A stretch of 64,000 nt of DNA, from assembly GCF_003003255.1 (NCBI RefSeq), contig NZ_PVTD01000001.1:496001-560000 (forward strand), written 5' to 3'. Both the position numbers and the translations under genes were made by a program. The first letter of the stretch is position 1. Each line of letters opens with the position of its first letter. The notes beneath the pieces were generated by a model. It searched no databases. It saw only the letters and a program-made list of their open reading frames with translations, and was not told where the DNA came from. Origin of the DNA: Aliiruegeria haliotis (GTDB taxonomy: Bacteria; Pseudomonadota; Alphaproteobacteria; Rhodobacterales; Rhodobacteraceae). Below, one piece after another: positions 41,539 to 55,517 of the stretch.

Positions 41539-42255
41539 CTATTCCGGGTCGAACACATAGCCGATGCCGCGCACCGTTCTGATCAGGCTCGGTTTCTGGG
41601 GGTTGGCCTCGATCTTTCGCCGCAATCGCGAGATCCGGATGTCGATGCTTCGGTCGAACGGATCCCAGGACCGGTCGTGTGCCTGTTCGAGGATCTGGTC
41701 GCGGTTGAGCACCCGTGATCGGTTCTCCGCGAAAAGCTTGAGCAGACGGAACTCCATGGCCGTGAGGGGTACTTCCTCGCCCGACTCGCGAAACAGCTTC
41801 GCAGCGTCGAAATCGAGGGTAAAGGTGCCGAAGGGCACCGACGTCCGCCCGTTTTCCGCCACCGGCGCTTCGGCCTGCGTCGGAGCGCGTCGCAACACGG
41901 CCTTGATGCGGGCTTCCAGTTCGCGCAGGTCGACCGGTTTGCCGAGGTAATCGTCCGCACCCATTTCCAACCCGACAATCCGGTCGATGGTTTCGCCGGC
42001 AGCGGTCAGCATGATGACGGGGGTTCGGTCTTCGACCCGAAGCGTGCGAAGCGCGGTCAGCCCGTCTTCTCCGGGCATGTTCACGTCCAGCAGGATGAGG
42101 TCGACATCCGCCTCCGACAGGCGTTCACGCATTTGCACCGCGTCATGGGCGGATATGACCGCGAAGCCGCGTTTCCCAAGGTATTCGCCGAGCATCTCGC
42201 AGAGATCGGTCTCGTCGTCGCAGACCAGAATGGTCGGATCGGATGTATCGGTCAT
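41539..42255 (-). CDS. OmpR-family response regulator
   Basis: 238-aa regulator: receiver domain with acidic pocket (CDDE), phospho-Asp in LILLDVNMPGEDG, conserved Thr/Lys (MLTAAG, GKPVD), and a winged-helix DNA-binding domain ending RTVRGIGYVFDPE. Its ATG overlaps the stop of the hybrid kinase (ATGA), so the two form an operon. It is the likely DNA-binding output of that kinase and stands divergent to the CysK-Grx/OsmC/microprotein cluster, its probable target. Confidence 0.93.
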   Translation of the reverse strand: MTDTSDPTILVCDDETDLCEMLGEYLGKRGFAVISAHDAVQMRERLSEADVDLILLDVNMPGEDGLTALRTLRVEDRTPVIMLTAAGETIDRIVGLEMGADDYLGKPVDLRELEARIKAVLRRAPTQAEAPVAENGRTSVPFGTFTLDFDAAKLFRESGEEVPLTAMEFRLLKLFAENRSRVLNRDQILEQAHDRSWDPFDRSIDIRISRLRRKIEANPQKPSLIRTVRGIGYVFDPE

Positions 42256-44462
42256 GATCTGCCTCCCCCGGCGAGAATCCCGGCCACGAAATCCCGCAAC
42301 TCCGTCGGCGAGACAGGTTTTTCCAGATAGGGACGCCCGGCTTCGAGCAGGAAGGTCTGCGAAGCCCGCCCCATCGTGTCCCCGGTGACGATGCCGATCT
42401 TGGACACAGTGCCGGGATGTGTGCGCCCAATATGCTCGAAGACGCCGCGTCCGTCGATGTCGGGCATGTTCAGGTCGCACAGGACGCAATCGAACCCGGT
42501 CTGGGCAAGTGCCTCGATCGCCTCGGTGCCGGAATAGGCGATGGTCACCTCATACCCCGCACGCTCCAGGATCTCCGCATTGAGGTCAGCCACATCCGGC
42601 TCATCGTCCACGACGAGAATACGGGCCGCTGGTGCCTCGTTCGCCTCCGGGCGCGGATCGGTGCCGTCGGTCGCGGGCAGGTCGACGACGATACGGGTGC
42701 CGGCGGGATGCCCCGGGTCGACGTGGATCCGGCCGTTGAATCCCTGAAGCGTGTTGTGGCACCAGGTCAGCCCGATACCCTTGCCGTTTCCAAGGCCTCG
42801 CGTGGTGAAATACGGCTCAAAAACCCTCTGGAGGATGTCTTGCGGAATACCGGGGCCATCGTCTTCGACCACCAGCCGAATGCCGCCGGTCGAGGAGTCA
42901 GATCCGGTCGCAATGCGGATTTGCCCGGCCTTGCCCGTCGCCGCGATTGCCGCGTGGGCATTCTGCAGCAGGTTGACCACCACCTGCACCATCCTGTCGG
43001 GATCGACGAGCACCGGCGGCAGGTCCGGCGCCAGATCGGTGGTGACCGACAGGTCGTTGCCGAAAACCTCGTACCGAACCACGTCGAGCGCCGTGGTGGC
43101 GATCTCGTTGATTTCCGTCGGCTCCAGTTCGGGCGTCTGGGCAGGCGTCATCGTCAGGTAGGTTCGGACGATCTCCGTGCATCGCTCGGCCGCCTCCCCG
43201 ATCCGACCGGCCTTGCGAACCACCTCCGGGTCGTCACTTTCCTCACCGAGCATCAGCGCATGACCTGCCACCACCGAAAGCGGATTGTTGAGGGCATGGG
43301 CCACGTTGGCGAGCAGCCCGCCGAGGGCGGATAGCTTCTCATTCTGGAACATGCGTTCGCGAGTCTGTGACATGCTGATCTCCGCTTCGAGCTGATCGGT
43401 CATGTCCCGTGAATAGGACACGATCACATCGCGCCCCTCGTATTCGAACATCCGGGCCGAGATGGCGCCCCAGAACGGTGCACCGTCGGCGCGATGAAAC
43501 CGTGCCTTGTAGTCGAGAACGATTCCGTCCCGGCGTAGCGCCTCCAGAAACCCCTCCCGGTCGGCCGGGTCGATGTAGAAATCCCTCGTATTGAGCTTGG
43601 TGCCGAATATCCGGTCGATCTCCGGGCTGCGATACAGGACGCGCCCGCTTTCGGCCTCCGTCATCAGGATCGGGGCGGGGCAGTTCTCAACAACCTTTCG
43701 GGCTATCGCATCCCGTTCCGCCGCCTCGCGCAGATCGACCAGCGCTGTGACCACGCAGGTCTCGCCTCCGTAGCGTGTCAGCCGCCCGTTTGCGGACATC
43801 GGAACGCGGCTGCCATCCGCCGCGAGAAACACCATGCGAAAGTCGTCGACTTCCCCATCTTGGCGGAGCATGCGCACGAAGGTCTCCCGGTCGGACGGGT
43901 TCTCGTAGTGCTCGATTGCGTTCCGGGTCTCGCCGAACAATGCGTTGGCGGCGGGTGAACGGTACAGGATCAGCCCGTCCCGCAGCCGCGACATGACCAC
44001 CGGGGTCGGGTTCGTCCCCAGGATGTTGCTCAGGAGCGCTTCGCTTTCCTCCAGCAAGCGCTTGTTCTGGCGGGACAGGGTCACGTCGTTTCGCACGATC
44101 ACGAAGCCGCCGCCAGCGGTCGGGTTGTAGCGTACCGCGTATTCGCGGCCGTCGCCCTGGGATATCTCCACGATCGTTGCGCCGTCGCCCCCAACGTTCG
44201 TGTGCCATTCGCGGTCGCGGTCAGCCGCATCCGTGTAGATCCCGCCGGCAACGCAGGCTTGCAGCATGTCCTCCCACCGCAGACCGGGCGCGATCATCTC
44301 GCGGATCGGGCCGAGCATTTCAGCGAAGCGTTCATTGTGGATCACGAGGCGCCGTTCGGGATCGAACACGGCGATGCCTTCGGAGAGCGCTTCTATCGCG
44401 TCGAGAAGGACGCCTTCGCGTTGCGCGTCCGTCACGTGGGGAGAGTGTTCGTGCTGGTTCAT
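42252..44462 (-). CDS. PAS-rich hybrid sensor histidine kinase
   Basis: 736-aa soluble sensor with no membrane helix. Three PAS-type domains (about 20-130, 140-250, 255-360) precede the HisKA domain with His389, an ATPase domain (N-box NLLQNAHAAI, G-boxes EDDGPGIP and GKGIGLTWCHN), and a C-terminal receiver (614-736, Asp663 in VLCDLNMPD). The H-box reads AHALNNPLSV: the acidic residue that normally follows the phosphorylated His is Ala, which in other kinases impairs autokinase or phosphatase activity. AGGTGG supports the ATG at 44462. PAS domains 2 and 3 and the kinase core resemble the kinase at 54027, suggesting a common origin. Ligand (redox, oxygen, haem or flavin) is not predictable. 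Confidence 0.92.
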   Translation of the reverse strand: MNQHEHSPHVTDAQREGVLLDAIEALSEGIAVFDPERRLVIHNERFAEMLGPIREMIAPGLRWEDMLQACVAGGIYTDAADRDREWHTNVGGDGATIVEISQGDGREYAVRYNPTAGGGFVIVRNDVTLSRQNKRLLEESEALLSNILGTNPTPVVMSRLRDGLILYRSPAANALFGETRNAIEHYENPSDRETFVRMLRQDGEVDDFRMVFLAADGSRVPMSANGRLTRYGGETCVVTALVDLREAAERDAIARKVVENCPAPILMTEAESGRVLYRSPEIDRIFGTKLNTRDFYIDPADREGFLEALRRDGIVLDYKARFHRADGAPFWGAISARMFEYEGRDVIVSYSRDMTDQLEAEISMSQTRERMFQNEKLSALGGLLANVAHALNNPLSVVAGHALMLGEESDDPEVVRKAGRIGEAAERCTEIVRTYLTMTPAQTPELEPTEINEIATTALDVVRYEVFGNDLSVTTDLAPDLPPVLVDPDRMVQVVVNLLQNAHAAIAATGKAGQIRIATGSDSSTGGIRLVVEDDGPGIPQDILQRVFEPYFTTRGLGNGKGIGLTWCHNTLQGFNGRIHVDPGHPAGTRIVVDLPATDGTDPRPEANEAPAARILVVDDEPDVADLNAEILERAGYEVTIAYSGTEAIEALAQTGFDCVLCDLNMPDIDGRGVFEHIGRTHPGTVSKIGIVTGDTMGRASQTFLLEAGRPYLEKPVSPTELRDFVAGILAGGGRS

Positions 44463-44516
44463 AAATCCCACCTAAAAGGCTGGTGTTTCAGGTCGTTTTC
44501 ATCCCCGGCGGGAAAG

Positions 44517-44530
44517 GTTTCAATTGTAAC
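44517..44530. promoter_or_regulatory. imperfect palindrome in the divergent kinase/cluster promoter
   Basis: GTTTCAATTGTAAC (arms GTTwCA/TGwAAC around AATT) lies between the hybrid kinase and the 62-aa gene. A closely similar sequence, GTTTCAGATTGTTAC, occurs near 47987, upstream of osmC, and CAATTG with a nearby GAAAC recurs near 51670. It may be the binding site of the response regulator; this is inference. Confidence 0.4.
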
Positions 44531-44730
44531 AGCATTGGCTGTCGTCTGCGACTGCTCGATATATTTTTTTGCTTTTATTTCAGAGGGATGAGGGAGGCTG
44601 TGCGATCCGCATGCTCTGAAGCGTTCGAAACACGATTGACCGCGTTCAGACATGCTGGCGCAACGCCGCCGGCACAGTCTTGCTCCTATCGGCAACCTCG
44701 CCAATGCACGCAAGCCCAAAGGAGCCCCCC

Positions 44731-44919
44731 ATGAGCGCCCCCCGAAACCGCGAGCCTCTGTACCGCATCGATGGCGCGATGGACGTGCTCGTTCCGCGCC
44801 GCGCAGCACCGGGCCAAACCGATCCCCGCACTCTTGCCGGCGACATCGGCACGGCCCGGCAGGACAGCCGCCGGGCCCCCGACTGGCACCGGACCCTGCG
44901 CCCCGCGCAGGCCATTTGA
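44731..44919 (+). CDS. 62-aa Arg/Pro-rich protein
   Basis: Begins MSAPRNREPLYRIDGAMDVL, 62 residues, with a strong AAAGGAG seven bases upstream of the ATG. It has no signal or membrane segment and about 20% Arg plus Pro. It lies just 41 bp before the CysK-Grx fusion, so the two are probably co-transcribed and the peptide may be a component of the pathway. No family recognised. Confidence 0.6.
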   Translation: MSAPRNREPLYRIDGAMDVLVPRRAAPGQTDPRTLAGDIGTARQDSRRAPDWHRTLRPAQAI

Positions 44920-44960
44920 CCCATTCCCTGACCCATCCATTCCATTCGAGGACCAGACAC

Positions 44961-46451
44961 ATGGCCGGACTGAAATCATCCATTCTCGATACGATCGGCA
45001 AGACGCCCGTTGTGCGGATCAACAACATCGCGCCCGAGGGCGTCGAGCTCTACGTGAAATGCGAGGCCTTCAATCCGCTGGGGTCGGTCAAGGACCGGCT
45101 GGCGCTAGGCGTGATCGAGGCTGCTGAACGCGACGGTTCGCTGAAGCCCGGCCAGACAGTGGTCGAGGCGACCTCCGGCAATACCGGCATCGGTCTGGCG
45201 ATGGTCTGTGCCCAGAAGGGCTATCCGCTGGTTCTGGTGATGGCAGAGAGTTTCTCCATCGAGCGCCGCAAGCTGATGCGCTTCCTCGGAGCCAGGGTGG
45301 TTCTGACACCGGCCTCCGAGAAAGGCACAGGCATGGTCGCAAAGGCGAAGGAACTCGCGGAGCAACACGGGTGGTACTGGACCCGGCAGTTCGACAACCC
45401 GGCGAACTCCGAGATCCACGCCACCACCACCGCTATCGAGATCCTGGACGATTTTGGCGTTGACGGGCTGGACTACTGGGTTTCAGGCTTTGGAACCGGC
45501 GGTACGATGAACGGGGTCGCGCGCGTGCTCAAGCAGCGCAGCCCGAGGACGAGGATCATCGCCACCGAGCCGGACAATTCCCAGCTCCTGAACTCCGATG
45601 TTGCCCAGGAGTTCGGACCCGATGGCGTCGCCGTCGGAAGCCATCCGAGTTGGCGCCCGCACCTGATGCAGGGCTGGTCGCCGGATTTCATCTCGCAACT
45701 CGCGCAACAGGTTCTGGACGCCGGTCATATCGACGCTTTCCGCCCGGTGCCGGGCGACGATGCGATCCAGTGCGCCAAGGATCTGGCAGCGCGCGAGGGC
45801 ATCTTCTGTGGCATCAGTTCCGGGGCCACCTTCGCTGCCGCGCTCGAGGTCGCAAGGACCGCGCCGAAGGGGTCGAGAATACTCGCCATGCTGCCCGACA
45901 CCGGCGAGCGGTATCTCTCCACGCCGCTCTTCGCGGACGTCCCCGAGGACATGACTGCGGAGGAAATGGCGCTGTCGCAATCGACGCCGAACTACCGCTT
46001 CGACGTCAGTCCGCCGCCCCCAGTGCCCGCCGTGGCCACCGCGGAACCTGCCGTCGATCCGGCGACACGAGCCGAGGTCGAGCGGATAGTCGCAAGCAAA
46101 CCTGTCGTGATCTTCGCCCTGGAATGGTGCGAGTTCACCTGGTCCGTCCGCAACATGTTCGCCGAAGCCGGGATCGACTACGAGAGCGTGGACCTCGATT
46201 CCGTGGCGTTCCAGAAGGGCGATGCGGGACGAAGCACCCGCTACCGCGCCGTCCTGCGGGACATGACCGGTTCACCGACGATCCCGCAGGTGTTCGTCAA
46301 CGGCCAGCATGTCGGCGGCGCCACAGAAACTTTCGATGCCTTCAACTCCGGCACATTGCAAGAGGCTCTGGCCGCAGGGGCGGTGAGTTTCGACCCCGGC
46401 ATGGAACGGGACGCATATTCCTTCCTGCCCAAGTGGCTGCACGCGAGGTAG
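44961..46451 (+). CDS. cysteine synthase fused to a glutaredoxin domain
   Basis: 496-aa fusion. Residues 1-340 are a PLP-dependent cysteine synthase fold: Lys44 in GSVKDRLA binds PLP, TSGNTG at 71-76 binds substrate carboxylate, GTGGTMNG the phosphate. After a Pro/Ala linker (SPPPPVPAVATAEP) residues 370-496 are a glutaredoxin with a monothiol site, WCEFTW (Cys390). The loop that in CysK reads QGIGAGF here reads QGWSPDF, a change in the region that shapes the nucleophile site. Fused Grx suggests a thiosulfate-using or persulfide-handling synthase, since S-sulfocysteine must be reduced. This is inference; plain O-acetylserine sulfhydrylase activity is the alternative. Confidence 0.9.
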   Translation: MAGLKSSILDTIGKTPVVRINNIAPEGVELYVKCEAFNPLGSVKDRLALGVIEAAERDGSLKPGQTVVEATSGNTGIGLAMVCAQKGYPLVLVMAESFSIERRKLMRFLGARVVLTPASEKGTGMVAKAKELAEQHGWYWTRQFDNPANSEIHATTTAIEILDDFGVDGLDYWVSGFGTGGTMNGVARVLKQRSPRTRIIATEPDNSQLLNSDVAQEFGPDGVAVGSHPSWRPHLMQGWSPDFISQLAQQVLDAGHIDAFRPVPGDDAIQCAKDLAAREGIFCGISSGATFAAALEVARTAPKGSRILAMLPDTGERYLSTPLFADVPEDMTAEEMALSQSTPNYRFDVSPPPPVPAVATAEPAVDPATRAEVERIVASKPVVIFALEWCEFTWSVRNMFAEAGIDYESVDLDSVAFQKGDAGRSTRYRAVLRDMTGSPTIPQVFVNGQHVGGATETFDAFNSGTLQEALAAGAVSFDPGMERDAYSFLPKWLHAR

Positions 46452-46497
46452 AGTGATGAAACAGGACCGCATTTTGCTGCCCACCAGGGGGATCCGG

Positions 46498-47910
46498 ATG
46501 ACTGATGCAATGAAGCTGGCCGCGGAACACGGCCGGGCGTGGCGCTCAAACGCGGTGCGGCCGATGGGCGACGGGGCCAATGTCCGCGCGATCCATCCGA
46601 CGGCAACGCTGGAGGCGCTTCGCGAAGCGTTCGGTGGCCCGCTGCCGGACATACCGCAGGAAGGGCAGGGGGTGATCCGCGACCTCATCGCGGCCGCCGA
46701 GCCCGGGCTTGTCGGCAATACCGATGCCGGGTTTCATGCCTGGGTCATGGGCGCGTCCCATCCTGTTGGTGTCGCCGCCGACTGGCTGACCTCCGCATGG
46801 GGGCAAAACCCGGGCATCTACCAATGCTCGCCTGCGGCTTGCACCGCTGAGGAAGTTGCCGCGGGCTGGCTGCTGGAGCTGCTTGATCTGCCGCGCAATG
46901 GATCGGTTGGCTTCACCACCGGCGCCACCATGGCGGGCTTCACGTGTCTTGCCGCAGCGCGTGGCGAGGTGCTGCGCCGGGCTGGCCACGATTTCGACGA
47001 GCTCGGGCTTGCCCATGCGCCGCCGGTCAAGGTGTTCGTCGCGGAAGACACGCATGTCACCAACCTGGCCGCGATCCGTTACCTTGGCATCGGCAATCGC
47101 GATGTGATCCGGATTGCCACAGATGCACAGGGCCGGATGGTCGTGCCGCTGCTTGCCCGCAGCCTGTCCGACACCGAAGGCCCGAAGATCATCCTGGCCA
47201 CCGCCGGCCACATCAATACCGGGGCGTTCGACGACTTTCCGGCGCTGGCCGACCTTGCCGCCGAAAACGACGCCTGGCTGCACGTGGATTCGGCATTCGG
47301 CCTGTGGGCCCGCGCGGCCCCGGACCGGAAGGCGCGGACCGCTGGTCTGGAGCGCGCCGACAGCTGGTCGACCGACGGCCACAAGTGGCTGCAGGTTCCC
47401 TACGATTCCGGCTTTGCCATTGTCCGGCATCCCGACGCGCATGCCCGCGCGATGGACATGACGGCGAGCTACCTCACGCAATCGCCCGAGGGCGGGCGCA
47501 ATCCGACGCAGTTCAGCCCGGAACTGTCCCGCCGGGCGCGCGGTTTCGCGGTCTGGGCCGTGTTGCGCGCGCTCGGGCGGGAAGGTGTCGCCGAAATGAT
47601 CGAGCGGCATTGCGCGGCGGCCGAGTTGCTCGGCGATCTCCTACGCGATCTGCCCGGGGTCCGGGTGCACAATGATGTGGTGCTTAACCAGCTCGCCGTG
47701 TCCTTCCATACCGGCGATGGGGGAGCGAACGTCACCGCCGCGATGGAGGAGCGGCTGAACCTCGATGGCCGCTACTTCTTCCGAACGGCGAGTTGGAAGG
47801 GCGAGACCGTGCTCCGCGTCTCCGTGATCTCGCGGGAGACGGGCGTCGCGGACATCCGGGCCCTGGCGGCCTGCGTTGACCGCGAATGGAGTGCCATTCG
47901 GACCACGTGA
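46498..47910 (+). CDS. PLP-dependent group II (aromatic/cysteate-type) decarboxylase
   Basis: 470-aa enzyme of the pyridoxal-dependent decarboxylase family (PF00282). The PLP Lys296 is in STDGHKWLQVPYD, and Asp264 in HVDSAFG holds the pyridine nitrogen. TTGATMAGFTCLAAAR is the conserved glycine turn (TSGxT/GG in relatives). Start at 46498 follows AGGGGG; ATGs 42 bases upstream are possible. It lies 46 bp after the CysK-Grx gene. Family members decarboxylate aromatic amino acids, glutamate, cysteate or cysteine sulfinate. Given the neighbour, a sulfur amino acid is a reasonable but unproven substrate. Confidence 0.88.
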   Translation: MTDAMKLAAEHGRAWRSNAVRPMGDGANVRAIHPTATLEALREAFGGPLPDIPQEGQGVIRDLIAAAEPGLVGNTDAGFHAWVMGASHPVGVAADWLTSAWGQNPGIYQCSPAACTAEEVAAGWLLELLDLPRNGSVGFTTGATMAGFTCLAAARGEVLRRAGHDFDELGLAHAPPVKVFVAEDTHVTNLAAIRYLGIGNRDVIRIATDAQGRMVVPLLARSLSDTEGPKIILATAGHINTGAFDDFPALADLAAENDAWLHVDSAFGLWARAAPDRKARTAGLERADSWSTDGHKWLQVPYDSGFAIVRHPDAHARAMDMTASYLTQSPEGGRNPTQFSPELSRRARGFAVWAVLRALGREGVAEMIERHCAAAELLGDLLRDLPGVRVHNDVVLNQLAVSFHTGDGGANVTAAMEERLNLDGRYFFRTASWKGETVLRVSVISRETGVADIRALAACVDREWSAIRTT

Positions 47911-47950
47911 ACCAAGCGCCGCATCAGCGACACATGCACAGTATCGACAC

Positions 47951-47978
47951 GCCCGCCGGAGATTTCGGCGGGCTTTTT
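47951..47978 (+). terminator. Rho-independent terminator after the decarboxylase gene
   Basis: 8-bp stem GCCCGCCG/CGGCGGGC with a 7-nt loop and TTTTT, 40 bp after the stop. The following AT-rich stretch (about 47980-48030) should hold the promoter of osmC. Confidence 0.9.
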
Positions 47979-48147
47979 CGTGCTTTGTTTCAGATTGTTA
48001 CACGGTTTTTTTGAATTGAAACTTTTGACACGCAGATCGGTGCATTCCGACCGAATACTGAAACGAGGGCCCCGTAGAACTCCTGTCATGGCCGAACGAG
48101 AACGGCCTTCCGATCCCAAAGCAAACACCAGACAGGAAGACACACAG

Positions 48148-48726
48148 ATGAACACCGCAGTCATGGAAAAGCCCGCCAAGATCGCCAAGAACGGCGTCGA
48201 CGTTCCCACGCTTCTGGCCACCATCGGCGCCGTCAAGGAAATGCCGGTTGCCGCGAAGTTCCAGTTCCGCGCCAAGGGCGCCTGGGTCAGCGGCACCCAC
48301 AGCCGTGCGACCGTCAACGGCTTCTTCGGCGCGGGAGAGGAGCAGAACCGCGACGAGGACTTCGTGATCGAAGGCGATCACCCCGCCGTTGTTTGCGGCG
48401 CCGACAAGGCGCCCACCCCGGTCGAGTATCTTTTGTCTGCGCTCGCGGCCTGCCTGACGGCTGGCGTCGGCAATATCGCTTCCGTGCGCCAGATCGATCT
48501 CGAGTCCGTCGAGACCATTGTTGAAGGCGACATCGACATGCAGGGCATCCTCGGCCTGAACGACGAGGTCCGTAACGGTTTCGAGGGCATTCGCGCCACT
48601 GTGAAGATCAAGGGCAATGCCCCGGCCGAGCAGCTCGAAAAGGTCGTCCAGCAGTCGATTGCCCGCTCCGCCGTCTTCGACATGCTGTCCAACGGCACGA
48701 AGGTCGACGTGGCGATCGCCGCGTGA
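48148..48726 (+). CDS. OsmC-family peroxiredoxin-like protein
   Basis: 192-aa OsmC-fold protein. Conserved core ADKAPTPVEYLLSALAACLT carries Cys102; Cys83 precedes it in VVCGADK, so both thiols that OsmC/Ohr proteins use to reduce organic hydroperoxides are present. CAGGAAG lies eight bases before the ATG. Preceded by terminator and AT-rich promoter, it heads a new transcription unit that includes the microproteins and flavoenzymes. Members detoxify organic peroxides; some OsmC-like proteins of this subtype also handle persulfides. Which applies here is unknown. Confidence 0.9.
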   Translation: MNTAVMEKPAKIAKNGVDVPTLLATIGAVKEMPVAAKFQFRAKGAWVSGTHSRATVNGFFGAGEEQNRDEDFVIEGDHPAVVCGADKAPTPVEYLLSALAACLTAGVGNIASVRQIDLESVETIVEGDIDMQGILGLNDEVRNGFEGIRATVKIKGNAPAEQLEKVVQQSIARSAVFDMLSNGTKVDVAIAA

Positions 48727-48736
48727 ACTCCCGAAG

Positions 48737-48759
48737 GGCGGCGGGTCAGACCCGCCGCC
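48737..48759 (+). repeat. perfect 10-bp hairpin between osmC and the microproteins
   Basis: GGCGGCGGGT/ACCCGCCGCC with a CAG loop, no T-run. It lies 10 bases after the osmC stop and 35 before the first microprotein start; possibly an attenuator or mRNA processing/stability element setting different levels for osmC and the downstream genes. Confidence 0.7.
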
Positions 48760-48793
48760 GCCTCTCCCCGCTGACACCCGAAAGGAAACCCCA

Positions 48794-48904
48794 ATGCTCC
48801 CGACCCTGTTTCGCAACCCGCCACTCCGCAACGATCGCCTGCCGCAGCGCCACGCAACCGCAACTCGCATGATGCAGCGCCGCAGCCGTGGGCAGGCAGG
48901 ATGA
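48794..48904 (+). CDS. Arg-rich microprotein 1 (36 aa)
   Basis: MLPTLFRNPPLRNDRLPQRH begins a 36-residue basic peptide (no signal, no membrane helix) with GAAAGGAAA about 6 nt upstream of ATG. It contains RHATATRMMQRRS, similar to RHARTLMQRSATRRS in microprotein 3. The stop overlaps the start of microprotein 2 (ATGA), indicating coupled translation. Too short for family assignment. Confidence 0.55.
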   Translation: MLPTLFRNPPLRNDRLPQRHATATRMMQRRSRGQAG

Positions 48905-49023
48905 CCATGGTCCGCAGATCCCGCAGCCCGCGTGCTGCTGCCCATTCCGCCCGACGGATCGCCAGTCGGGTCCTGCGCCTTCCCGAGATTCTGCCGGACC
49001 GCAAGGACGGCTGGATCGTCTGA
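48901..49023 (+). CDS. Arg/Ser-rich microprotein 2 (40 aa)
   Basis: Begins MTMVRRSRSPRAAAHSARRI and runs 40 residues, ending in DRKDGWIV. The ATG at 48901 overlaps the stop of microprotein 1; a second ATG at 48907 has GGCAGG six bases upstream and would give 38 residues. Highly basic amino half, acidic/aromatic tail; no family recognised. Confidence 0.5.
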   Translation: MTMVRRSRSPRAAAHSARRIASRVLRLPEILPDRKDGWIV

Positions 49024-49039
49024 CCCGGAAGGAGACCCG

Positions 49040-49165
49040 ATGGCCCGTTTCACCAGAAGCAACCGCCACGCCCGCACCCTCATGCAACGCAGTGCGACCC
49101 GCAGGTCCGCGTCGCGGCCCGGGCGTGGCATCGACAGTTTCATCGCCGGCATCTTTTCCGGCTGA
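49040..49165 (+). CDS. Arg-rich microprotein 3 (41 aa)
   Basis: Begins MARFTRSNRHARTLMQRSAT, 41 residues, with AAGGAG ahead of the ATG. The first 30 residues are Arg/Ser-rich; the end (DSFIAGIFSG) is hydrophobic. It shares the RHAxTxMQR-like core with microprotein 1, so the two may be paralogues. It lies 18 bp before the FAD monooxygenase start. Confidence 0.55.
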   Translation: MARFTRSNRHARTLMQRSATRRSASRPGRGIDSFIAGIFSG

Positions 49166-49183
49166 CCCACCTGGGAGCCCAGC

Positions 49184-50434
49184 ATGACCCGCAAGACAGA
49201 TGTCCTGATCATTGGCGCCGGACAAGCCGGACTGGCCATGAGCCATTGCCTGACCGGCCAGGGAATCGAGCACGTTGTCCTCGATCGCGGTGCCGTCGGG
49301 CAACGGTGGCGGGCGGAACGCTGGGCGTCGCTGCACCTGCTCACGCCCAACTGGATGACGCGCCTGCCAGGCTGGCAGTACCGTGGCCCCGACCCGGAGG
49401 GCTTCATGCACAAGGACGAGGTCGTTGGCATGTTGAACCGGTATTCCCGGTCCTTTGCCGCGCCGATCCGGGAGTTCTCTGCTGTCGAGAGCCTGTGCCG
49501 GACCACTGACGGGTTCCGTGTCACGACACAGGCGGAGACCTGGATCGCCCGCTCTGTCGTTGTCGCGACCGGAGCCTGCGACCGCCCGGCGGTGCCTGCG
49601 TTCGCAGGCGGGGTGGCGCGTGATATCACTCAGGTCACCCCCGGCGACTACGTTCATCCCGGACAGCTCGAACAGGGCGGCGTGCTGGTTGTCGGCGCCT
49701 CTGCGACCGGTATCCAACTGGCCGAGGAGATCCACCTGTCAGGCCGTCCGGTCACCCTCGCTGCCGGCGCCCATGCCCGCTTGCCACGCCGCTATAGGGG
49801 GCGGGATGTCCTCGATTGGCTGGACCGTTGCGGCGTGTTGTCCGAGGCACGGAACCCTTCGGTTCCGAACCACCGCGCCCTGACGCAGCCGTCGCTGCAA
49901 CTGATCGGCTCGACCCCGGCTCGTGATCTCGACCTGATGACGTTGGCGCGATTGGGCATAACCATCACCGGGAGGGTGGATGGCATCGGGGGCAACACCG
50001 TCAGAATATCCGACAGCCTTCCCGCCGACATGTTGGCCGCGGAGGATCGGCGTATCCGCACCCTCGCGCGGATCGACGATCACATCCATTCCACCGGTGC
50101 CACGGCGCCCGTTTCGGCCGATGCCGCGCCCCTGACCATGCCTGTGTCCGCTAGCCTGCGCGCAATCGATCTGCGCGCCGCCGGTATCCGCACCATCCTC
50201 TGGGCCACGGGCTATCGCCGCAGCTACCCATGGCTGCAACTCCCGGTGTTCGACCCATCCGGGGAAATCCTGCAATCCGGGGGGATCACCCCGTGCCCCG
50301 GCCTCTACACGCTCGGCCTGCCATTCATGCGCAGGCGAAATTCCACCTTCATCGATGGCGTCGGCCAGGACGCAATCGAGATCACCACGGAAATTGCCCG
50401 GCACCTCGACATCACCTGTCGAGCGGTTGCCTGA
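49184..50434 (+). CDS. FAD/NAD(P)-dependent flavin monooxygenase-like enzyme
   Basis: 416-aa flavoprotein. Two Rossmann fingerprints, GAGQAGLAMS at residues 11-20 and VVGASATGIQLAEE in the centre, with the linking ATGACDRP turn, match FMO/CzcO-type NAD(P)H monooxygenases (Baeyer-Villiger, N- or S-hydroxylating). FMO-type tryptophan/His signature is weak, so substrate class is open. It is part of the tightly spaced series after the microproteins and is followed, 15 bp on, by a second flavoenzyme. Confidence 0.87.
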   Translation: MTRKTDVLIIGAGQAGLAMSHCLTGQGIEHVVLDRGAVGQRWRAERWASLHLLTPNWMTRLPGWQYRGPDPEGFMHKDEVVGMLNRYSRSFAAPIREFSAVESLCRTTDGFRVTTQAETWIARSVVVATGACDRPAVPAFAGGVARDITQVTPGDYVHPGQLEQGGVLVVGASATGIQLAEEIHLSGRPVTLAAGAHARLPRRYRGRDVLDWLDRCGVLSEARNPSVPNHRALTQPSLQLIGSTPARDLDLMTLARLGITITGRVDGIGGNTVRISDSLPADMLAAEDRRIRTLARIDDHIHSTGATAPVSADAAPLTMPVSASLRAIDLRAAGIRTILWATGYRRSYPWLQLPVFDPSGEILQSGGITPCPGLYTLGLPFMRRRNSTFIDGVGQDAIEITTEIARHLDITCRAVA

Positions 50435-50449
50435 CACAGGAGAAAGACC

Positions 50450-51625
50450 ATGCCCCAGACCAGGCCCAATACCCATTTCGATGCGTTGATCGTCGGCGCC
50501 AGGTGTGCGGGTGCCGCCACCTCGATGCTTCTTGCACGCGCCGGGCTGAAGGTCCTGCTGATCGACCGGGACGAGGCCGGAACGGACACGATGTCGACCC
50601 ATGCGCTGATGCGCGGCGCGGTCATGCAACTCGACCGTTGGGGGCTTCTCGATGGCCTGTTATCCGCAGGGGCGCCGCCCATCCGCAAAACGACCTTCCA
50701 CTATGGCGCAGAGGCGTTGCCGCTGGACATTCGTCCGGGTCACGGCGTTGACATCCTTGTGGCCCCGCGCCGGTCTGTGCTGGACGCGCAGCTTGTCGAG
50801 GCCGCCCGCGCGGCCGGTGCGGTTGTCCGTCACCGCACGGCACTCCGGGCCCTGCTGCGCGAACCGGCGACCGGTCGCGTCATTGGCGCCACGCTGTCCG
50901 GACCCGGCGGCAGGACCGAGCATGTTCACGCCGCCATCACCGTAGGCGCCGACGGGCGGCGGTCGTCCGTAGCCCGGCAGGTCGGCGCGCGGAGCATCTC
51001 GCAATCGGTGCATGCCACGGGCTGCGTCTATGGCTATTTCGATGGCATTCCCGACGATGGCTTCCGCTGGTACTATGGGCCGGATGTGTCAGCGGGGGCG
51101 ATCCCGACCAATGACGGTTCCCATTGTGTGTTTGCCGCGATCCCGGCCGACGCGTTTCGTACCCTGAAAAGCCTACACGCACCGTCGCAACTGTTGACCC
51201 GGCTGGCCGAGCAGTCCAACCCGGACCTGGCGGCGGTTCTGCGGGATGCGAAGCCATGCACACGCCCGATTCTGTTTGCGGGGGCACCGGGCCATCTGCG
51301 GCAATGCCACGGACCCGGCTGGGCGCTGGTTGGCGATGCCGGCTATTTCAAGGACCCGCTCACGGCGCATGGGATCACGGATGCCCTGCGCGATGCTGAA
51401 TGCCTCGCCAATGCCGTGGTCGCGGGAACGAAAGCTGCGCTGGTCACGTATCAGGACACGCGGGACCGACTGTCGCGCGGGTTGTTCGAGATCACCGACA
51501 GGATCGCCTCCTTCAACTGGTCCCTGCGCGAGCTTCAACAGCTTCACAAACAGCTCAACGAAGAGATGAAGCGGGAACAGGGCTGGATGGAAAAGGCCTT
51601 CACACCCGCGCCGCTGGCCGCCTGA
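50450..51625 (+). CDS. FAD-dependent oxidoreductase, geranylgeranyl-reductase/halogenase-like
   Basis: 391-aa FAD_binding_3-type flavoprotein. FDALIVGARCAGAATS carries the dinucleotide GxGxxG (G-A-R-C-A-G-A, with the second Gly as A), ITVGADGRRSSVARQVGA the central DG motif, and WALVGDAGYFKDPLTAHGIT the GD motif for the FAD ribityl chain. Related enzymes hydroxylate, halogenate or reduce isoprenoid or indole-type substrates. Catalytic Lys of halogenases could not be located. Fifteen bases separate it from the preceding monooxygenase. Confidence 0.87.
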   Translation: MPQTRPNTHFDALIVGARCAGAATSMLLARAGLKVLLIDRDEAGTDTMSTHALMRGAVMQLDRWGLLDGLLSAGAPPIRKTTFHYGAEALPLDIRPGHGVDILVAPRRSVLDAQLVEAARAAGAVVRHRTALRALLREPATGRVIGATLSGPGGRTEHVHAAITVGADGRRSSVARQVGARSISQSVHATGCVYGYFDGIPDDGFRWYYGPDVSAGAIPTNDGSHCVFAAIPADAFRTLKSLHAPSQLLTRLAEQSNPDLAAVLRDAKPCTRPILFAGAPGHLRQCHGPGWALVGDAGYFKDPLTAHGITDALRDAECLANAVVAGTKAALVTYQDTRDRLSRGLFEITDRIASFNWSLRELQQLHKQLNEEMKREQGWMEKAFTPAPLAA

Positions 51626-51728
51626 CCGCGCGCCGGAAACAAACGAAACATTTCCCGGCGTCCCGGGACAATTGAGTGAAACACCCGGCCGCTAGATCCT
51701 GATGACATGATCTGAAGGGACCATTGAA

Positions 51729-52577
51729 ATGAACATGATACCTCGAATTGATTTCGCCGTGGCAGCCGCTGCCACGTCCTCGAACCTGCCAGTGGTCGCC
51801 TTGCATGGGACCGCAATGAACGCCGCGACCTGGACCGGCCTTCGGGAACATGCAGGCAGCCGTCTGTCCTTCTCCGCCCCGACCCTCGCCGGGTCAATGG
51901 CAGGCACGGGTGGCGCACGGGAGCTGGAGGAAACCACGGACGCCGTTGCCCGTGAAATCCTGCAACCCGGAAAAGCCCTGCACCTCGTCGGGCACGATTT
52001 CGGCGCCGTTGTTGTAATGAAAATCGCGGCCGCGCATCCCGGACACGTTGCCAGCCTGACGCTGGTCGAGCCGACAGCCTTCAACGTGCTGTCGCCGACC
52101 GACGAAACGTCCGGGCCGATCCGGCGGGACGTCATGCGGACAATGGCGCAGATGCGTGCGTCGCTGGCAAACGGCGATACGCACGGGGCCATGGAATGCT
52201 ACATCGACTGCATCAACGGTCAGGGAACTTGGGGGCGGACGGCACCTGTCCACCGCCAGGACCTCTCTGGTCTGGCCAGTCGCGCGTTGTCCGACCTCCA
52301 TTCGGTCACCGCAGACCGGATGACGCCGGCGGAGCTTGCCACGATCGTCTGCCCGGTTCTGCTGATCCGTGGAGGTCGGACATCCAGGGCATTGCAACAC
52401 CTCGCGCTGGAGATCCGCCGCTCCGTGCCCTTCGTCCGCGAAGAGGTCATCGAGGGCGCCGGCCATTTCCCGCATCTGACCGATCCGCACCTCGTCGATC
52501 CGATGATCGTCGAATTTCTTGTGCGCGTGGATCGTCAATGGCAGGATAGCACGGTTACCCTGCGGCAGGCGGCCTAG
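51729..52577 (+). CDS. alpha/beta hydrolase with Asp nucleophile
   Basis: 282-aa alpha/beta hydrolase. The oxyanion HG is in ALHGTAMNA, and the nucleophile elbow is VGHDFGAVV with Asp90 in place of Ser, as in epoxide hydrolases, haloalkane dehalogenases or fluoroacetate dehalogenases. The catalytic His is in EGAGHFPH near residue 250. Preceded by a 103-bp spacer with an AT-rich CAATTG. A dealkylating or epoxide-opening role downstream of two FAD oxygenases would be consistent. Substrate unknown. Confidence 0.85.
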   Translation: MNMIPRIDFAVAAAATSSNLPVVALHGTAMNAATWTGLREHAGSRLSFSAPTLAGSMAGTGGARELEETTDAVAREILQPGKALHLVGHDFGAVVVMKIAAAHPGHVASLTLVEPTAFNVLSPTDETSGPIRRDVMRTMAQMRASLANGDTHGAMECYIDCINGQGTWGRTAPVHRQDLSGLASRALSDLHSVTADRMTPAELATIVCPVLLIRGGRTSRALQHLALEIRRSVPFVREEVIEGAGHFPHLTDPHLVDPMIVEFLVRVDRQWQDSTVTLRQAA

Positions 52578-52613
52578 GCCAATTCGCATTCAATTGATTG
52601 GGGAGGAAACCCC

Positions 52614-52973
52614 GTGGAAAAGACACTGTTTGAGAAGTACGGCGGTTTTTCGACGGTCAGCAAGATCGTCATGGACCTTTACGACACCCTGCTGGACGAC
52701 GACGATGTCGGGCCGTTTTTTGACGATGTCGATATGCCCCGGCTGATCGATCATCAAACAAAATTCGTCGCGTCGCTGATGGGTGGGCCAGCGTCTTTCA
52801 CCGACACGCATATTCAGCGGGCCCACCACAACCTGGATATTGCGCCGGTTCATTTCGACCGCCTGAAAGAAATCATCGAAGGCACGCTTGAGAAATTCGA
52901 GGTCGAGCGGGAGGATATCGAAACGGTCCTCGGGGCATTCGAATCCCGGCGCAAATTGCTGCTCGGCGACTGA
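52614..52973 (+). CDS. glbN: group I truncated haemoglobin
   Basis: 119-aa trHb. LFEKYGGFSTVSKIVMDLYD is the group I A/B-helix pattern with Tyr23 at the B10 position; PFFDDVDMPRLIDHQTKFV is the group I C-E region; the proximal His is H71 in RAHHNLDI. GTG start with GGGGAGG eight bases upstream. Group I trHbs bind O2 or NO. It is followed one base later by a PAS-cyclase gene, so expression of the globin and the cyclase is coupled, suggesting a gas-linked signal. Confidence 0.92.
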   Translation: MEKTLFEKYGGFSTVSKIVMDLYDTLLDDDDVGPFFDDVDMPRLIDHQTKFVASLMGGPASFTDTHIQRAHHNLDIAPVHFDRLKEIIEGTLEKFEVEREDIETVLGAFESRRKLLLGD

Positions 52974-52974
52974 C

Positions 52975-54030
52975 ATGACCATCGAAGCCATCAATGAGCA
53001 ATTGTTGCGGGCCATCGGCGTCGGCGTTGCGCTTGCCGATCTCGATACGCTCGAACTGAAGTTCCGCAATGACACTTTCATCGACTGGTTCGGCGGACCG
53101 GAGGCGAGCCTGCGTCTGGGGGATCTTTTTCCGTCGCTCGACCTGGAAGCACTGTCCGGGGAAATGGAGAATGGCGGCACGTTCACGGCGGAGGCGAGTT
53201 TCAAACTCAAGCGGCGGCGCATGACTGTCGCGATGGATTTCACCCGCGCCGGGAATTCCACCGAACGGATCGCGGTGCTGGTCTGTCAGAACATCACGCG
53301 GATCAAGGAACTGGAGTCGATGATCGATTCCTATTCGATGATGGTCGAGCGCAATACGCACGAGATCAAGCGCGAGAAGGAACAGGTCGAGAAACTCCTT
53401 CTCAACATGATGCCGAGATCCGCCTATGAAGAATACAAATCCTTTGGCGTCGTGGCGCCGCGGATCTTTGAATCGGTTTCCGTGCTGACACTGGATTTCG
53501 AGAATTTCGACAAGATCCTGGAGTCCAACGATCCGGCAGTCATCGTCAGCGAATTGAACGATATCTATACCGCATTCGATCGTATCGGAGAGCAATTCGG
53601 ATGCGAGCGGGTGCGCACGAATGGCGACAGTTATTTCGCGGTGTCCGGTGTTCCCGACCCGGTGCTGAACCATGCGGAATCCGTTGCCAATGCGGCGGTA
53701 CGTTTCCTGCGATATCTGGCGCGGCGCAATGAAAGCCACCCGATCCGCTGGGAGGCCCGCCTCGGGTTGGCCTCCGGTCCGGTCGTGGGATCTGTCGTTG
53801 GCGTTCAGCGATATATCTACGACGTGTTCGGACCGGCGGTCGAGCGGGCGAGCAAGACACGTGCACGCGCTCCGGGCATGGCAATCGTCGCCGATGCCAG
53901 CATTCGCGACCTGTTGGATACGCGTTTCACCCTGACCGCGCTGCCGCCGGCCAGGGTTCGTCCGGAACCGCAGGGTGGCCTCTACCTGCTTGAGGAAGCC
54001 AGCCAGAGCGAGGCGCACGGAGCCCTGTGA
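52975..54030 (+). CDS. PAS-linked class III nucleotidyl cyclase
   Basis: 351-aa protein: PAS-like sensor (about 1-110), a coiled coil (115-145), and a class III cyclase domain (155-345). Metal-binding Asp174 (LTLDFENF) and Asp218 (RTNGDSYFAVSG) are present. At base-specificity sites it has Arg214 (Lys in adenylate, Glu in guanylate cyclases) and Asp283. The usual VNxASR at the transition-state site is changed to VERASK (Glu290, Lys294), so activity may be altered or the enzyme may use other substrates. The linker EKEQVEKLLLNMMP resembles that of soluble guanylate cyclases. Its stop overlaps the kinase start. Confidence 0.88.
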   Translation: MTIEAINEQLLRAIGVGVALADLDTLELKFRNDTFIDWFGGPEASLRLGDLFPSLDLEALSGEMENGGTFTAEASFKLKRRRMTVAMDFTRAGNSTERIAVLVCQNITRIKELESMIDSYSMMVERNTHEIKREKEQVEKLLLNMMPRSAYEEYKSFGVVAPRIFESVSVLTLDFENFDKILESNDPAVIVSELNDIYTAFDRIGEQFGCERVRTNGDSYFAVSGVPDPVLNHAESVANAAVRFLRYLARRNESHPIRWEARLGLASGPVVGSVVGVQRYIYDVFGPAVERASKTRARAPGMAIVADASIRDLLDTRFTLTALPPARVRPEPQGGLYLLEEASQSEAHGAL

Positions 54031-55517
54031 CACGTCCGGACGACATGATCGCCGGGGCGGGCTCCACCCCGGCGCCCGATTCCGTGCCGATGCGTGAGGC
54101 AATCGACCTGTTGGAGGATGCGGTTGCCTTTTTTGATGCCGATGGCGGGATCCTTGCCACCAACCTGAGTTTTCGCGATGCCTATGGCGAGATCGCGCAG
54201 TATATCCGGGAGGGGTCGTCCTGGGAGATTTTCCTGCTTGAGGCAGAGCGCCACGCGGCGCTTGACGGCGCGGTCTGCCAGCAATTGCGTCTCGCCGAGA
54301 CGATGCTTGGCGGACAGGGTGCAACCCCAGCTGCAATCGAGCATCGCGGCGACGCGAACCGGGCCTACGAGATCCGGCTGAAGCCGACGTCGAACGGTGG
54401 GTTCGCAATGGTCCAGACCGAAGTGATCGACACGCGTGGACGGGCGGAAAGCGACGAGTTGGCGGAGGTGCTGATGTCGAAAGTGCTCGAAGCTTGCCCG
54501 GCCAACCTAACGATGTCACGGATCGGCGACGGTCAGATCCTCTACCGGACACCGGCCGCAACCGAGTTGCTGGGTGCGGTACGCAACAGCCGTGATCACT
54601 TCGCAAGGGTCGAGGAGCGCGCGGATTTCGTGACCGCGCTTCTGCCCGATGCTCGTGTGGACGACATGCGGGTGACCGGGCGCCGCCGCGACGGATCGGC
54701 CTTTCCGGCATCGCTTTCGGCACGGTTGATCGACTACCGGGGCGACGAGGTGGTGGTGGCGAACATGATCGACCTGACCGACGAGATCGCCCTTCAGGCG
54801 GAACTGGAGCGGCAGAAGGACCTTGCCTTTCAGTCGGAAAAGATGTCGGCACTTGGGGAGTTGCTGGCCAGTGTTGCGCATGAACTCAACAACCCGCTCT
54901 CGGTCGTGGTGGGCAATGCGACCATGCTGAGCGAAGAAGACCTGGGCGAGGCGGCGCTCCGGCGCGTGAGCAAGCTCAGTGATGCGGCCGACCGGTGCGT
55001 TCGGATTGTCCGCACCTTCCTGTCGATGGCGCGGCAACAGCCCCTCAACCTGAGCGACGTCTCGCTGGCGGAACTGGTCGAGACTGCGCTCGATGCCTTG
55101 CAGAGCCACGCAGAGACATCGTCCGTCGAAATCGAGGTGTCGCTGCCACAATCCCTGCCGTTGGTGCGCGTTGACGACATTCAGGTCGTTCAGGTGATCC
55201 TGAACATCCTTGCCAATGCCGATCAGGCCATCGGCGAGTCCGGTATCGGAGATCGGATCCGGATTTCGGCGGCGGAGGAGGCCGCGACCGGGCAGGTCCG
55301 CGTGACAATCGCCGACAATGGTCCCGGTGTGCCGGAGCAGATCCACGGCCGCATCTTCGATCCGTTGTTCACGACGAAGTCGAAGGGCAGGGGCACCGGT
55401 GTCGGCCTGGCCTTCTGCCATCGCGTGATCTCTGCCCACGGCGGTGCGATCGAGTTGGAGCGGCGCAGCACAAGCGGCGCGACCTTCGTGATTGATTTGC
55501 CAGTGGCCGGCCCCTGA
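54027..55517 (+). CDS. PAS sensor histidine kinase, soluble
   Basis: 496-aa kinase beginning GTG (overlapping the cyclase stop, GTGA); an ATG at 54045 is an alternative. Two PAS domains (about 25-135 and 145-255) precede HisKA with His285 in VAHELNNPLSV, N-box NILANADQAI, G-boxes DNGPGVPEQI and GRGTGVGLAFCH. No transmembrane helix and no receiver. It is related to the hybrid kinase at 42252-44462 in PAS and kinase parts, but has the full HELNNP motif. No partner response regulator is adjacent; it may phosphorylate the OmpR-type regulator at 41539 and thus complete the circuit. Confidence 0.92.
   Translation: MTRPDDMIAGAGSTPAPDSVPMREAIDLLEDAVAFFDADGGILATNLSFRDAYGEIAQYIREGSSWEIFLLEAERHAALDGAVCQQLRLAETMLGGQGATPAAIEHRGDANRAYEIRLKPTSNGGFAMVQTEVIDTRGRAESDELAEVLMSKVLEACPANLTMSRIGDGQILYRTPAATELLGAVRNSRDHFARVEERADFVTALLPDARVDDMRVTGRRRDGSAFPASLSARLIDYRGDEVVVANMIDLTDEIALQAELERQKDLAFQSEKMSALGELLASVAHELNNPLSVVVGNATMLSEEDLGEAALRRVSKLSDAADRCVRIVRTFLSMARQQPLNLSDVSLAELVETALDALQSHAETSSVEIEVSLPQSLPLVRVDDIQVVQVILNILANADQAIGESGIGDRIRISAAEEAATGQVRVTIADNGPGVPEQIHGRIFDPLFTTKSKGRGTGVGLAFCHRVISAHGGAIELERRSTSGATFVIDLPVAGP

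Follow-up and report, generated by a model that had tools for sequence, protein, structure and literature searches.

A truncated globin paired with a guanylate cyclase-like protein, two histidine kinases and a promoter repeat in a sulfur/redox gene block of Aliiruegeria haliotis: a candidate heme-globin regulon

Bacterial H-NOX/histidine kinase pairs place a stand-alone heme sensor gene beside a kinase. Soluble guanylate cyclase (sGC) unites an N-terminal H-NOX heme domain, an HNOBA/PAS part, a coiled coil and a class III cyclase domain within a single chain. In HemAC-Lm of Leishmania and in the globin-coupled sensors, a globin is thought to control a cyclase or another signalling domain (partial texts of PMC12755159 and PMC4720485). 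Here, we describe a block of 14 genes that resembles each of these systems in part. It lies at positions 41539-55517 of a 64,000-nt stretch of the Aliiruegeria haliotis genome (hereafter the window; the source assembly has 5.04 Mb) and includes a truncated hemoglobin (trHb), a cyclase-like protein with an sGC-like layout (CYC), two histidine kinases (HK1 and HK2) and a response regulator (RR). On balance, we favour a reading of the block as a two-component regulon under a heme-globin sensor over its reading as a single pathway.

In contrast with sGC, CYC lacks an H-NOX domain, a truncated globin is encoded by a separate gene, the base residues are of adenine type and, in the clade of the window, the transition-state pair is lost. 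The separation of globin and cyclase into two genes, and the truncated form of the globin, also distinguish the block from HemAC-Lm and the globin-coupled sensors. It resembles the H-NOX/kinase pairs in having a stand-alone heme sensor adjacent to a kinase, over which the sensor would act in trans, but here a truncated globin replaces H-NOX and an sGC-like protein stands between sensor and kinase. By alignment, trHb shares with mycobacterial HbN (group I) TyrB10, a hydrophobic E7, GlnE11 and HisF8; unlike HbN, window-type trHb is the obligate neighbour of a cyclase-like gene. Regulators of the OmpR/PhoB family bind direct repeats, and RR, a REC domain followed by a winged helix, likewise goes with a tandem repeat at promoters, which has its own 9-bp unit, TGAAACAAT. 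Among the open-licence PMC papers listed, including the partial texts of PMC1592074, PMC12755159 and PMC4720485, we found no description of this module, and the strings searched gave no printed record of the repeat TGAAACAAT. The signalling genes of the block are:

41539-42255, minus strand: OmpR-type response regulator RR (Pfam Response_reg and Trans_reg_C)
42252-44462, minus strand: HK1, hybrid PAS histidine kinase with a receiver domain (Pfam)
52614-52973, plus strand: trHb, group-1 truncated hemoglobin (Pfam Bac_globin, PDB relatives)
52975-54030, plus strand: CYC, sGC-shaped cyclase-like protein of 351 residues (Pfam, alignment, model)
54027-55517, plus strand: HK2, histidine kinase with a PAS domain, its gene coupled to that of CYC (Pfam)

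Of 103 loci retrieved by scanning with the CYC alignment, we kept the best 80 (the named loci) and counted their genes by tblastn at 1e-8, with HK1 and HK2 matching each other and some loci cut by contig ends. The loci span many alphaproteobacterial genera, and in 80/80 of them trHb lies directly 5' of CYC, with a gap of -11 to +10 bp (1 bp in the window). In the window, as in all of these loci, globin and cyclase each have their own gene and are not fused as in a globin-coupled sensor. A family sample of 394 genomes had CYC at E<=1e-60 in 24, the window's own counted. The 22 loci fetched from it, four of which duplicate named loci, all hold trHb next to CYC, as do the remaining two, the window (G000) and G043 (L028). 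This adjacency suggests that trHb and CYC may touch. Tyr23, Phe36, Gln48 and His71 are invariant in 95/95 distinct trHb, and the E7 position is Leu, Ile, Met or Val. Together with the Pfam Bac_globin match, Tyr23, Gln48 and His71, which we take to be B10, E11 and F8, assign the protein to the group I truncated hemoglobins, and a ligand bound at its heme might give it a sensing role. Two minimal trHb-CYC modules whose cyclase residues are intact (L150:4886-6198 and L153:5236-6548) directly follow genes that by eye are like those of ribosomal L13/S9, and in four loci a homoserine O-succinyltransferase of MetA type directly precedes trHb-CYC (L064:8606-9523, L065:8496-9446, L067:8606-9523 and L092:8610-9515).

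One might instead suppose that trHb is a detoxifying enzyme, an NO dioxygenase or peroxidase, and that CYC, the kinases and the output genes form a general stress regulon without any sensing by the globin. We consider this unlikely. The heme pocket is indeed like that of mycobacterial HbN, with roles that we presume for its residues, and seven loci hold a second globin, of the three-on-three single-domain type, between RR and CysK-Grx (e.g. L060:13724-14164). But trHb is tied to CYC alone (80/80 and 22/22), even where all other cluster genes are missing.

The remaining genes of the block, and a hairpin, are:

44731-44919, plus strand: mp0, small open reading frame (ORF) of 62 residues, 5' of CysK-Grx (tblastn)
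44961-46451, plus strand: CysK-glutaredoxin fusion, CysK-Grx (Pfam PALP and Glutaredoxin)
46498-47910, plus strand, alternative GTG start at 46453: group II pyridoxal phosphate (PLP) decarboxylase (Pfam Pyridoxal_deC)
47951-47973, plus strand: terminator-like hairpin 3' of the decarboxylase (10 pairs, 8 G-C, T-run)
48148-48726, plus strand: OsmC-family protein (Pfam OsmC; closest solved chain 2opl)
48794-48904, plus strand: mp1, microprotein of 36 residues (tblastn relatives)
48901-49023, plus strand: mp2, microprotein of 40 residues with a conserved C-terminal DGWI motif (tblastn relatives)
49040-49165, plus strand: mp3, microprotein of 41 residues (tblastn relatives)
49184-50434, plus strand: FAD1, flavoenzyme related to TIGR04046 (351 bits, cut-off 498)
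50450-51625, plus strand: FAD2, flavoenzyme of the FAD_binding_3/geranylgeranyl-reductase kind (Pfam, NCBIfam)
51729-52577, plus strand: alpha/beta hydrolase, nucleophile position occupied by Asp (Pfam)

An earlier note on this DNA had named a sulfur/redox block bracketed by two related PAS kinases. All the genes it named were recovered by ORF listing and by scans with Pfam and NCBIfam, and HK1 and HK2 share 38% identity over 368 HK1 residues. The co-occurrence in gene neighbourhoods of relatives, which the note had set as its own test, was found: the grouping is kept across genera and orders. Counts per 80 named loci are trHb 80, RR 67, HK1 52, HK2 48, hydrolase 40, CysK-Grx 37, OsmC 35, FAD1 34, FAD2 30 and decarboxylase 15. 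The most constant genes are trHb, CYC, the kinases and the regulator, in support of the note's suggestion of gas/redox sensing. Its suggested route from a cysteine-like product through decarboxylation and flavin oxidation is possible, but by the same counts it is not the conserved core. CysK-Grx, the decarboxylase and OsmC-FAD1-FAD2 look rather like exchangeable outputs. Two forms of the locus recur. Form I has trHb-CYC-HK2 plus CysK-Grx and/or OsmC-FAD1-FAD2. In form II, RR-HK1 is divergent from hydrolase-methyltransferase-trHb-CYC, the methyltransferase being present in 27 loci.

It also seems improbable that the block is a biosynthetic cluster, in which a beta-substituted alanine from CysK-Grx would be decarboxylated by the PLP enzyme and the amine then oxidised by FAD1/FAD2, with globin and kinases merely regulating. 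CysK-Grx and the decarboxylase adjoin in distant genomes too (L115, L022, L031), and L116, L119, L122 (FAD1/OsmC 3 kb off) and L031 have OsmC-FAD1(-FAD2) next to CysK-Grx in the absence of globin genes, both as expected of such a cluster. However, the decarboxylase, never found without CysK-Grx, is in just 15/37 of the named CysK-Grx loci, and form II has the same relay and repeat with neither CysK-Grx nor decarboxylase in the locus. CysK-Grx also occurs alone, or beside the decarboxylase, OsmC-FAD1 or FAD2, without globin genes, and unlinked OsmC-FAD1, trHb-CYC alone and CysK-Grx with decarboxylase are all found as separate modules. At E<=1e-165, CysK-Grx is present in 9/385 genomes of the class and 5/398 of the phylum, the own genome counted. 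A search with it through 120 relatives and plasmids found the cluster in Tropicimonas, the nearest named relatives of the window, and one further genus, and a near-complete copy in Novosphingobium pentaromativorans US6-1, where it is carried by plasmid pLA3. Unlinked FAD1 of at least 330 bits is found in 14/37 trHb-CYC genomes without FAD1 in the locus vs 16/385 class genomes (Fisher 7e-9, ignoring kinship and genome size, with some loci incomplete and the own genome in the class count). Two CysK-Grx loci without the globin module encode winged-helix proteins fused to alpha/beta hydrolase or TPR repeats (L116:14436-15656 and L121:13221-14840), possibly an alternative regulator of the same enzymes.

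In CYC, a PAS-like part comes first, then a long helix and then the class III cyclase domain. Among 49 CYC, Pfam finds Guanylate_cyc in 49/49, PAS_8 in 44/49 and HNOBA in 49/49 at E<=1 (best 3.3e-5), and no H-NOX domain in the CYC of the window, whose chain begins with the PAS-like part. In Foldseek, the AlphaFold model of CYC has sGC chains as its first 15 matches, over 359-402 columns. By sequence and model, CYC may be described as having an sGC-like layout minus H-NOX. We read its residues against adenylate cyclases, with catalytic roles that we take to apply here, in 76 rows (75 named loci and the window; five named loci have no usable CYC ORF). The metal and base Asp are kept in 75, 76 and 76 of 76 rows, and the base residues are of adenine type. 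The CYC of the window has D174, D218, R214 and D283, and Glu290 and Lys294 replace the Asn/Arg pair of the transition state; it thus lacks the residue set of an active class III cyclase, which is complete in 35/37 rows of the other clade.

Loss of this pair goes with HK2. Where HK2 is directly 3' of CYC the pair is broken in 38/38 rows, and where it is not the pair is intact in 35/38; the loci of these 35 all lack CysK-Grx. Within the family sample, we found the pair broken in 4/4 loci with HK2 after CYC, and intact in 14/14 without linked RR or kinase (L155 has a weak, 28% HK2 match) and in 3/3 readable HK1-RR loci, L158 being unread. In L143 the first metal Asp is replaced by Ser. The CYC of L105 groups with the kinase clade, HK2 having been lost there; we rejected a CYC-HK2 fusion in this locus, whose long ORF is read-on without a kinase. 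We think that the CYC of the window clade probably no longer produces a cyclic nucleotide. That it is still an active heme-controlled adenylate cyclase with cyclic AMP as output, by means of another subunit or altered residues, is in our opinion quite unlikely. The near-invariant metal and base Asp and the intact pair of the kinase-less minimal module would agree with activity. Yet the kinase clade shows free variation at the transition-state positions: of the 102 columns of the cyclase domain that are conserved in the other clade, those of Arg and Asn rank 3rd and 6th in variability.

The receiver Asp57 of RR is kept in 70/70 aligned rows and, with Trans_reg_C, identifies an OmpR-family regulator. 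HK1 has its H-box His and receiver Asp in 55/55 rows, and HK2 its H-box His in 47/47. We found that a direct repeat, TGAAACAATTGAAACA, marks the promoters of the cluster. In the window its boxes are:

44516-44531, minus strand: weak box, score 13.8, 54 bp before HK1 (same position in Tropicimonas loci)
44617-44632, plus strand: weak box, score 10.2, 101 bp from the 44516 box (the minus/plus pair is recurrent)
48017-48032, plus strand: weak box, score 13.5, 131 bp before osmC (same place in L035, L036 and L038)
51635-51650, plus strand: strong box, score 20.4, before the hydrolase (matrix scan)

Counting word pairs, we found GAAAC-N4-GAAAC in 35/38 hydrolase and 19/34 OsmC upstream regions, and ACAAT-N-GAAAC in 16/37 CysK-Grx upstream regions; with one mononucleotide shuffle per set the maximum was 3-4. 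Exact double sites lie upstream of the hydrolase (43), OsmC (21), CysK-Grx (4) and trHb (10), some being shared by neighbouring genes. A matrix trained on the 43 hydrolase sites gives 159 strong sites, i.e. scoring at least 19, in the 80 loci (training sites included), of which 111 are exact double sites; one block-shuffled set had zero, its highest bin being 18. Sites are commonly 54-115 bp before HK1 and about 250 bp or less from osmC, FAD1, trHb or the hydrolase, while some are farther from the closest matched gene. A minus/plus pair 98-104 bp apart recurs in 36/80 loci. In 27 genomes the pattern occurs 65 times, vs 17 for its reversed control.

The repeat co-occurs with the regulator. Strong sites are present in 66/66 named loci with RR above 55% identity. 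Of the 14 without such RR, eight have the repeat, namely L035, L036, L041, L059 and L061, which end at HK1 or RR, L042 and L046, which have HK2, and L105, where the kinase is lost. The six without a strong site (L073, L081, L090, L094, L110 and L113) are all kinase-less, so that 1/7 kinase-less named loci has the repeat. In the family sample it is found in 8/8 loci with RR or a kinase (outside the HK1 promoter in L158) and 0/14 without. Ten unlinked osmC-FAD1 units from trHb-CYC genomes, chosen by FAD1, have the repeat before osmC in four cases (L166, L167, L170 and L171, not L168, L169 or L172-L175), and none of three comparison units (L176-L178) has a strong site. L130, chosen by its box, is a further osmC-FAD1-FAD2 unit; in L124, likewise chosen, the box lies past FAD1. 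We rejected the attempt to derive a regulon from genome-wide boxes, as 17/20 presumed off-cluster sites fall inside an ORF, by a crude gene caller; L138 is the cluster itself, and the remainder, L130 aside, are not informative. A strong repeat away from cluster genes was seen in Sneathiella (L165:4388), whose trHb-CYC locus is without RR. A YgjV-like inner-membrane protein adjoins the cluster in nine loci (e.g. L036:13346-13936), three of them with a strong upstream site; tblastn found no such gene in the window.

In the heme-globin regulon that we favour, trHb would bind a small ligand and thereby alter the state of CYC in trans. CYC, keeping its metal and base contacts without the transition-state pair, would signal by contact to HK2 and/or HK1, which would phosphorylate RR. 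RR, in turn, would bind TGAAACAATTGAAACA-type direct repeats and control its own operon and CysK-Grx(-decarboxylase), as well as OsmC-microproteins-FAD1-FAD2 and hydrolase-trHb-CYC-HK2. The outputs would probably serve against sulfide, persulfide or thiol stress. For CysK-Grx the most likely reaction would be the synthesis of cysteine from O-acetylserine and sulfide, and its glutaredoxin part might free sulfide from persulfides or keep thiols reduced; the substrates proposed for all the enzymes are predictions. A bolder formulation, which we offer only tentatively, is that this is an alphaproteobacterial split counterpart of the animal NO receptor, with trHb acting in trans on an sGC-shaped cyclase, and that the window clade has swapped cyclic-nucleotide output for signalling from a dead cyclase to a histidine kinase, with a regulon of sulfur-thiol enzymes and conserved microproteins of about 36-62 residues. 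If this is true, a heme sensor has been built from parts not known to cooperate (a truncated globin, an sGC-like protein and a two-component system), and truncated globins, so far mostly discussed as enzymes, have a signalling role. The sister cyclases, intact and broken, could then show a route from cyclase to kinase adaptor, and the repeat makes the regulon, hence the physiological signal, testable in culturable marine strains.

Several observations weigh against this explanation. A pocket resembling that of HbN is equally expected of an NO-consuming enzyme and of a sensor. The HNOBA match of the CYC of the window is weak (E 0.017, below the cut-off) and covers the helix end only, its model is moderate (pLDDT 78.7, pTM 0.53) and the fit of this model to sGC is loose (TMq about 0.46-0.50, rmsd 8.7-22.7). 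Degenerate CYC without HK2 exist in L064, L067 and L105, and 14/39 kinase-clade CYC retain Arg, eight retain Lys and one retains Asn. On a tree built without the pair columns there are two changes per trait and independent pairs are not significant. Hence we rejected replicated coevolution of HK2 with a dead cyclase; the association is close to one evolutionary event. The window has one strong box (51635) and three weak ones, of which that at 44516 is not significant on score alone. A plain two-mismatch scan of the window is at chance (6 matches vs 4.64 expected), and in the own genome the pattern has one exact match (51635) vs two for the reversed control. The link between box and RR is one of co-occurrence. 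The weakness of the repeat in the window, and its presence in just 4/10 unlinked units when those chosen by their box are set apart, slightly lower the odds of our two main readings. Finally, the sulfide reading of CysK-Grx turns on one residue placed by motif.

This residue is Gln237. In CysK-Grx the PLP Lys, Asn74, Phe144, Gln237 and the glutaredoxin Cys390 (CEFT) are invariant in 51/51 distinct rows, and the second Cys of the glutaredoxin CxxC is present in 39/51, with Ser in 7 and Thr in 5, including the window. According to a partial text of PMC12800425, Gln at this site is linked with sulfide only and Arg with the use of thiosulfate, while the Phe (here Phe144) is linked with O-acetylserine; we located the sites by motif instead of aligning to the enzymes studied there. 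CysK-Grx has the residues of an O-acetylserine sulfhydrylase and passes the NCBIfam cysK model (353 bits, cut-off 351). It is hardly probable that the fusion is a one-protein thiosulfate assimilation system, S-sulfocysteine synthase plus glutaredoxin. E. coli glutaredoxins do reduce S-sulfocysteine (PMC3528435, partial text), but in 51/51 distinct rows the motif-matched residue is Gln where the thiosulfate-using PaCysM has Arg (PMC12800425, partial text), at odds with a CysM-type S-sulfocysteine synthase, and we set this reading back.

The other enzymes have less telling relatives. PLP Lys and Asp are conserved in all 15/15 rows of the decarboxylase, which is related to tryptophan, glutamate, diaminobutyrate and cysteine-sulfinate decarboxylases. 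Comparison with solved relatives gave no substrate for this enzyme, nor for the form-II methyltransferase, FAD2, OsmC or the hydrolase. OsmC has Cys102 in 57/57 rows and Cys83 in 27/57, and FAD2 has distant halogenase-like relatives. FAD1 matches the Nit1C flavoenzyme MSMEG_0569 (TIGR04046) over its full length, but with 351.3 bits vs a cut-off of 498.35 and, unlike in Nit1C, no nitrilase was found by Pfam among the cluster genes scanned; we rejected Nit1C/cyanide membership and keep the resemblance. The Asp-nucleophile hydrolase of the earlier note does have its Asp, as a local feature: 3/43 aligned homologues share it (window, L035 and L037), and 39 have Ser. The three microproteins of that note are present, with relatives in other genera by tblastn: mp1 in Tropicimonas, Silicimonas and one uncultured Rhodobacteraceae; mp2 in Tropicimonas and in Roseovarius and Aliiroseovarius, there upstream of trHb and outside the osmC-FAD1 gap; mp3 in Tropicimonas only, with ORFs similar by eye in L028 and L047. 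A few further weak tblastn matches look like chance. The additional mp0, absent from the note's list, has relatives of 35-53% identity in Tropicimonas loci.

Several transcription units, and not one operon, probably make up the block. HK1/RR, mp1/mp2 and CYC/HK2 overlap by 4 bp, but the hairpin 3' of the decarboxylase and the several boxes speak against a single long operon, which we rejected; hairpins in the region are no commoner than in shuffles (10 vs 10.0). The earlier note had held that independent transcription would make the grouping one of chance. Transcription is perhaps partly independent, in several units, but the repeat shared by the unit promoters indicates one regulon. A chance neighbourhood, in spite of modules that occur apart, has a negligible probability, being contradicted by the grouping across genera and orders, the Novosphingobium copy, the shared repeat and the unlinked co-occurrence.

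A few minor observations concern the surroundings. A phage-defence role was rejected after PADLOC gave no match among nine cluster proteins. The cluster copy on pLA3 (L022:1-2373) adjoins an arsenic-resistance operon with arsB, arsC, an arsI/cadI-type gene and arsR, and a rhodanese-like protein, identified by eye, neighbours the cluster in three loci. In the window, an M13-family peptidase is encoded 3' of the cluster, at 57273-59396.

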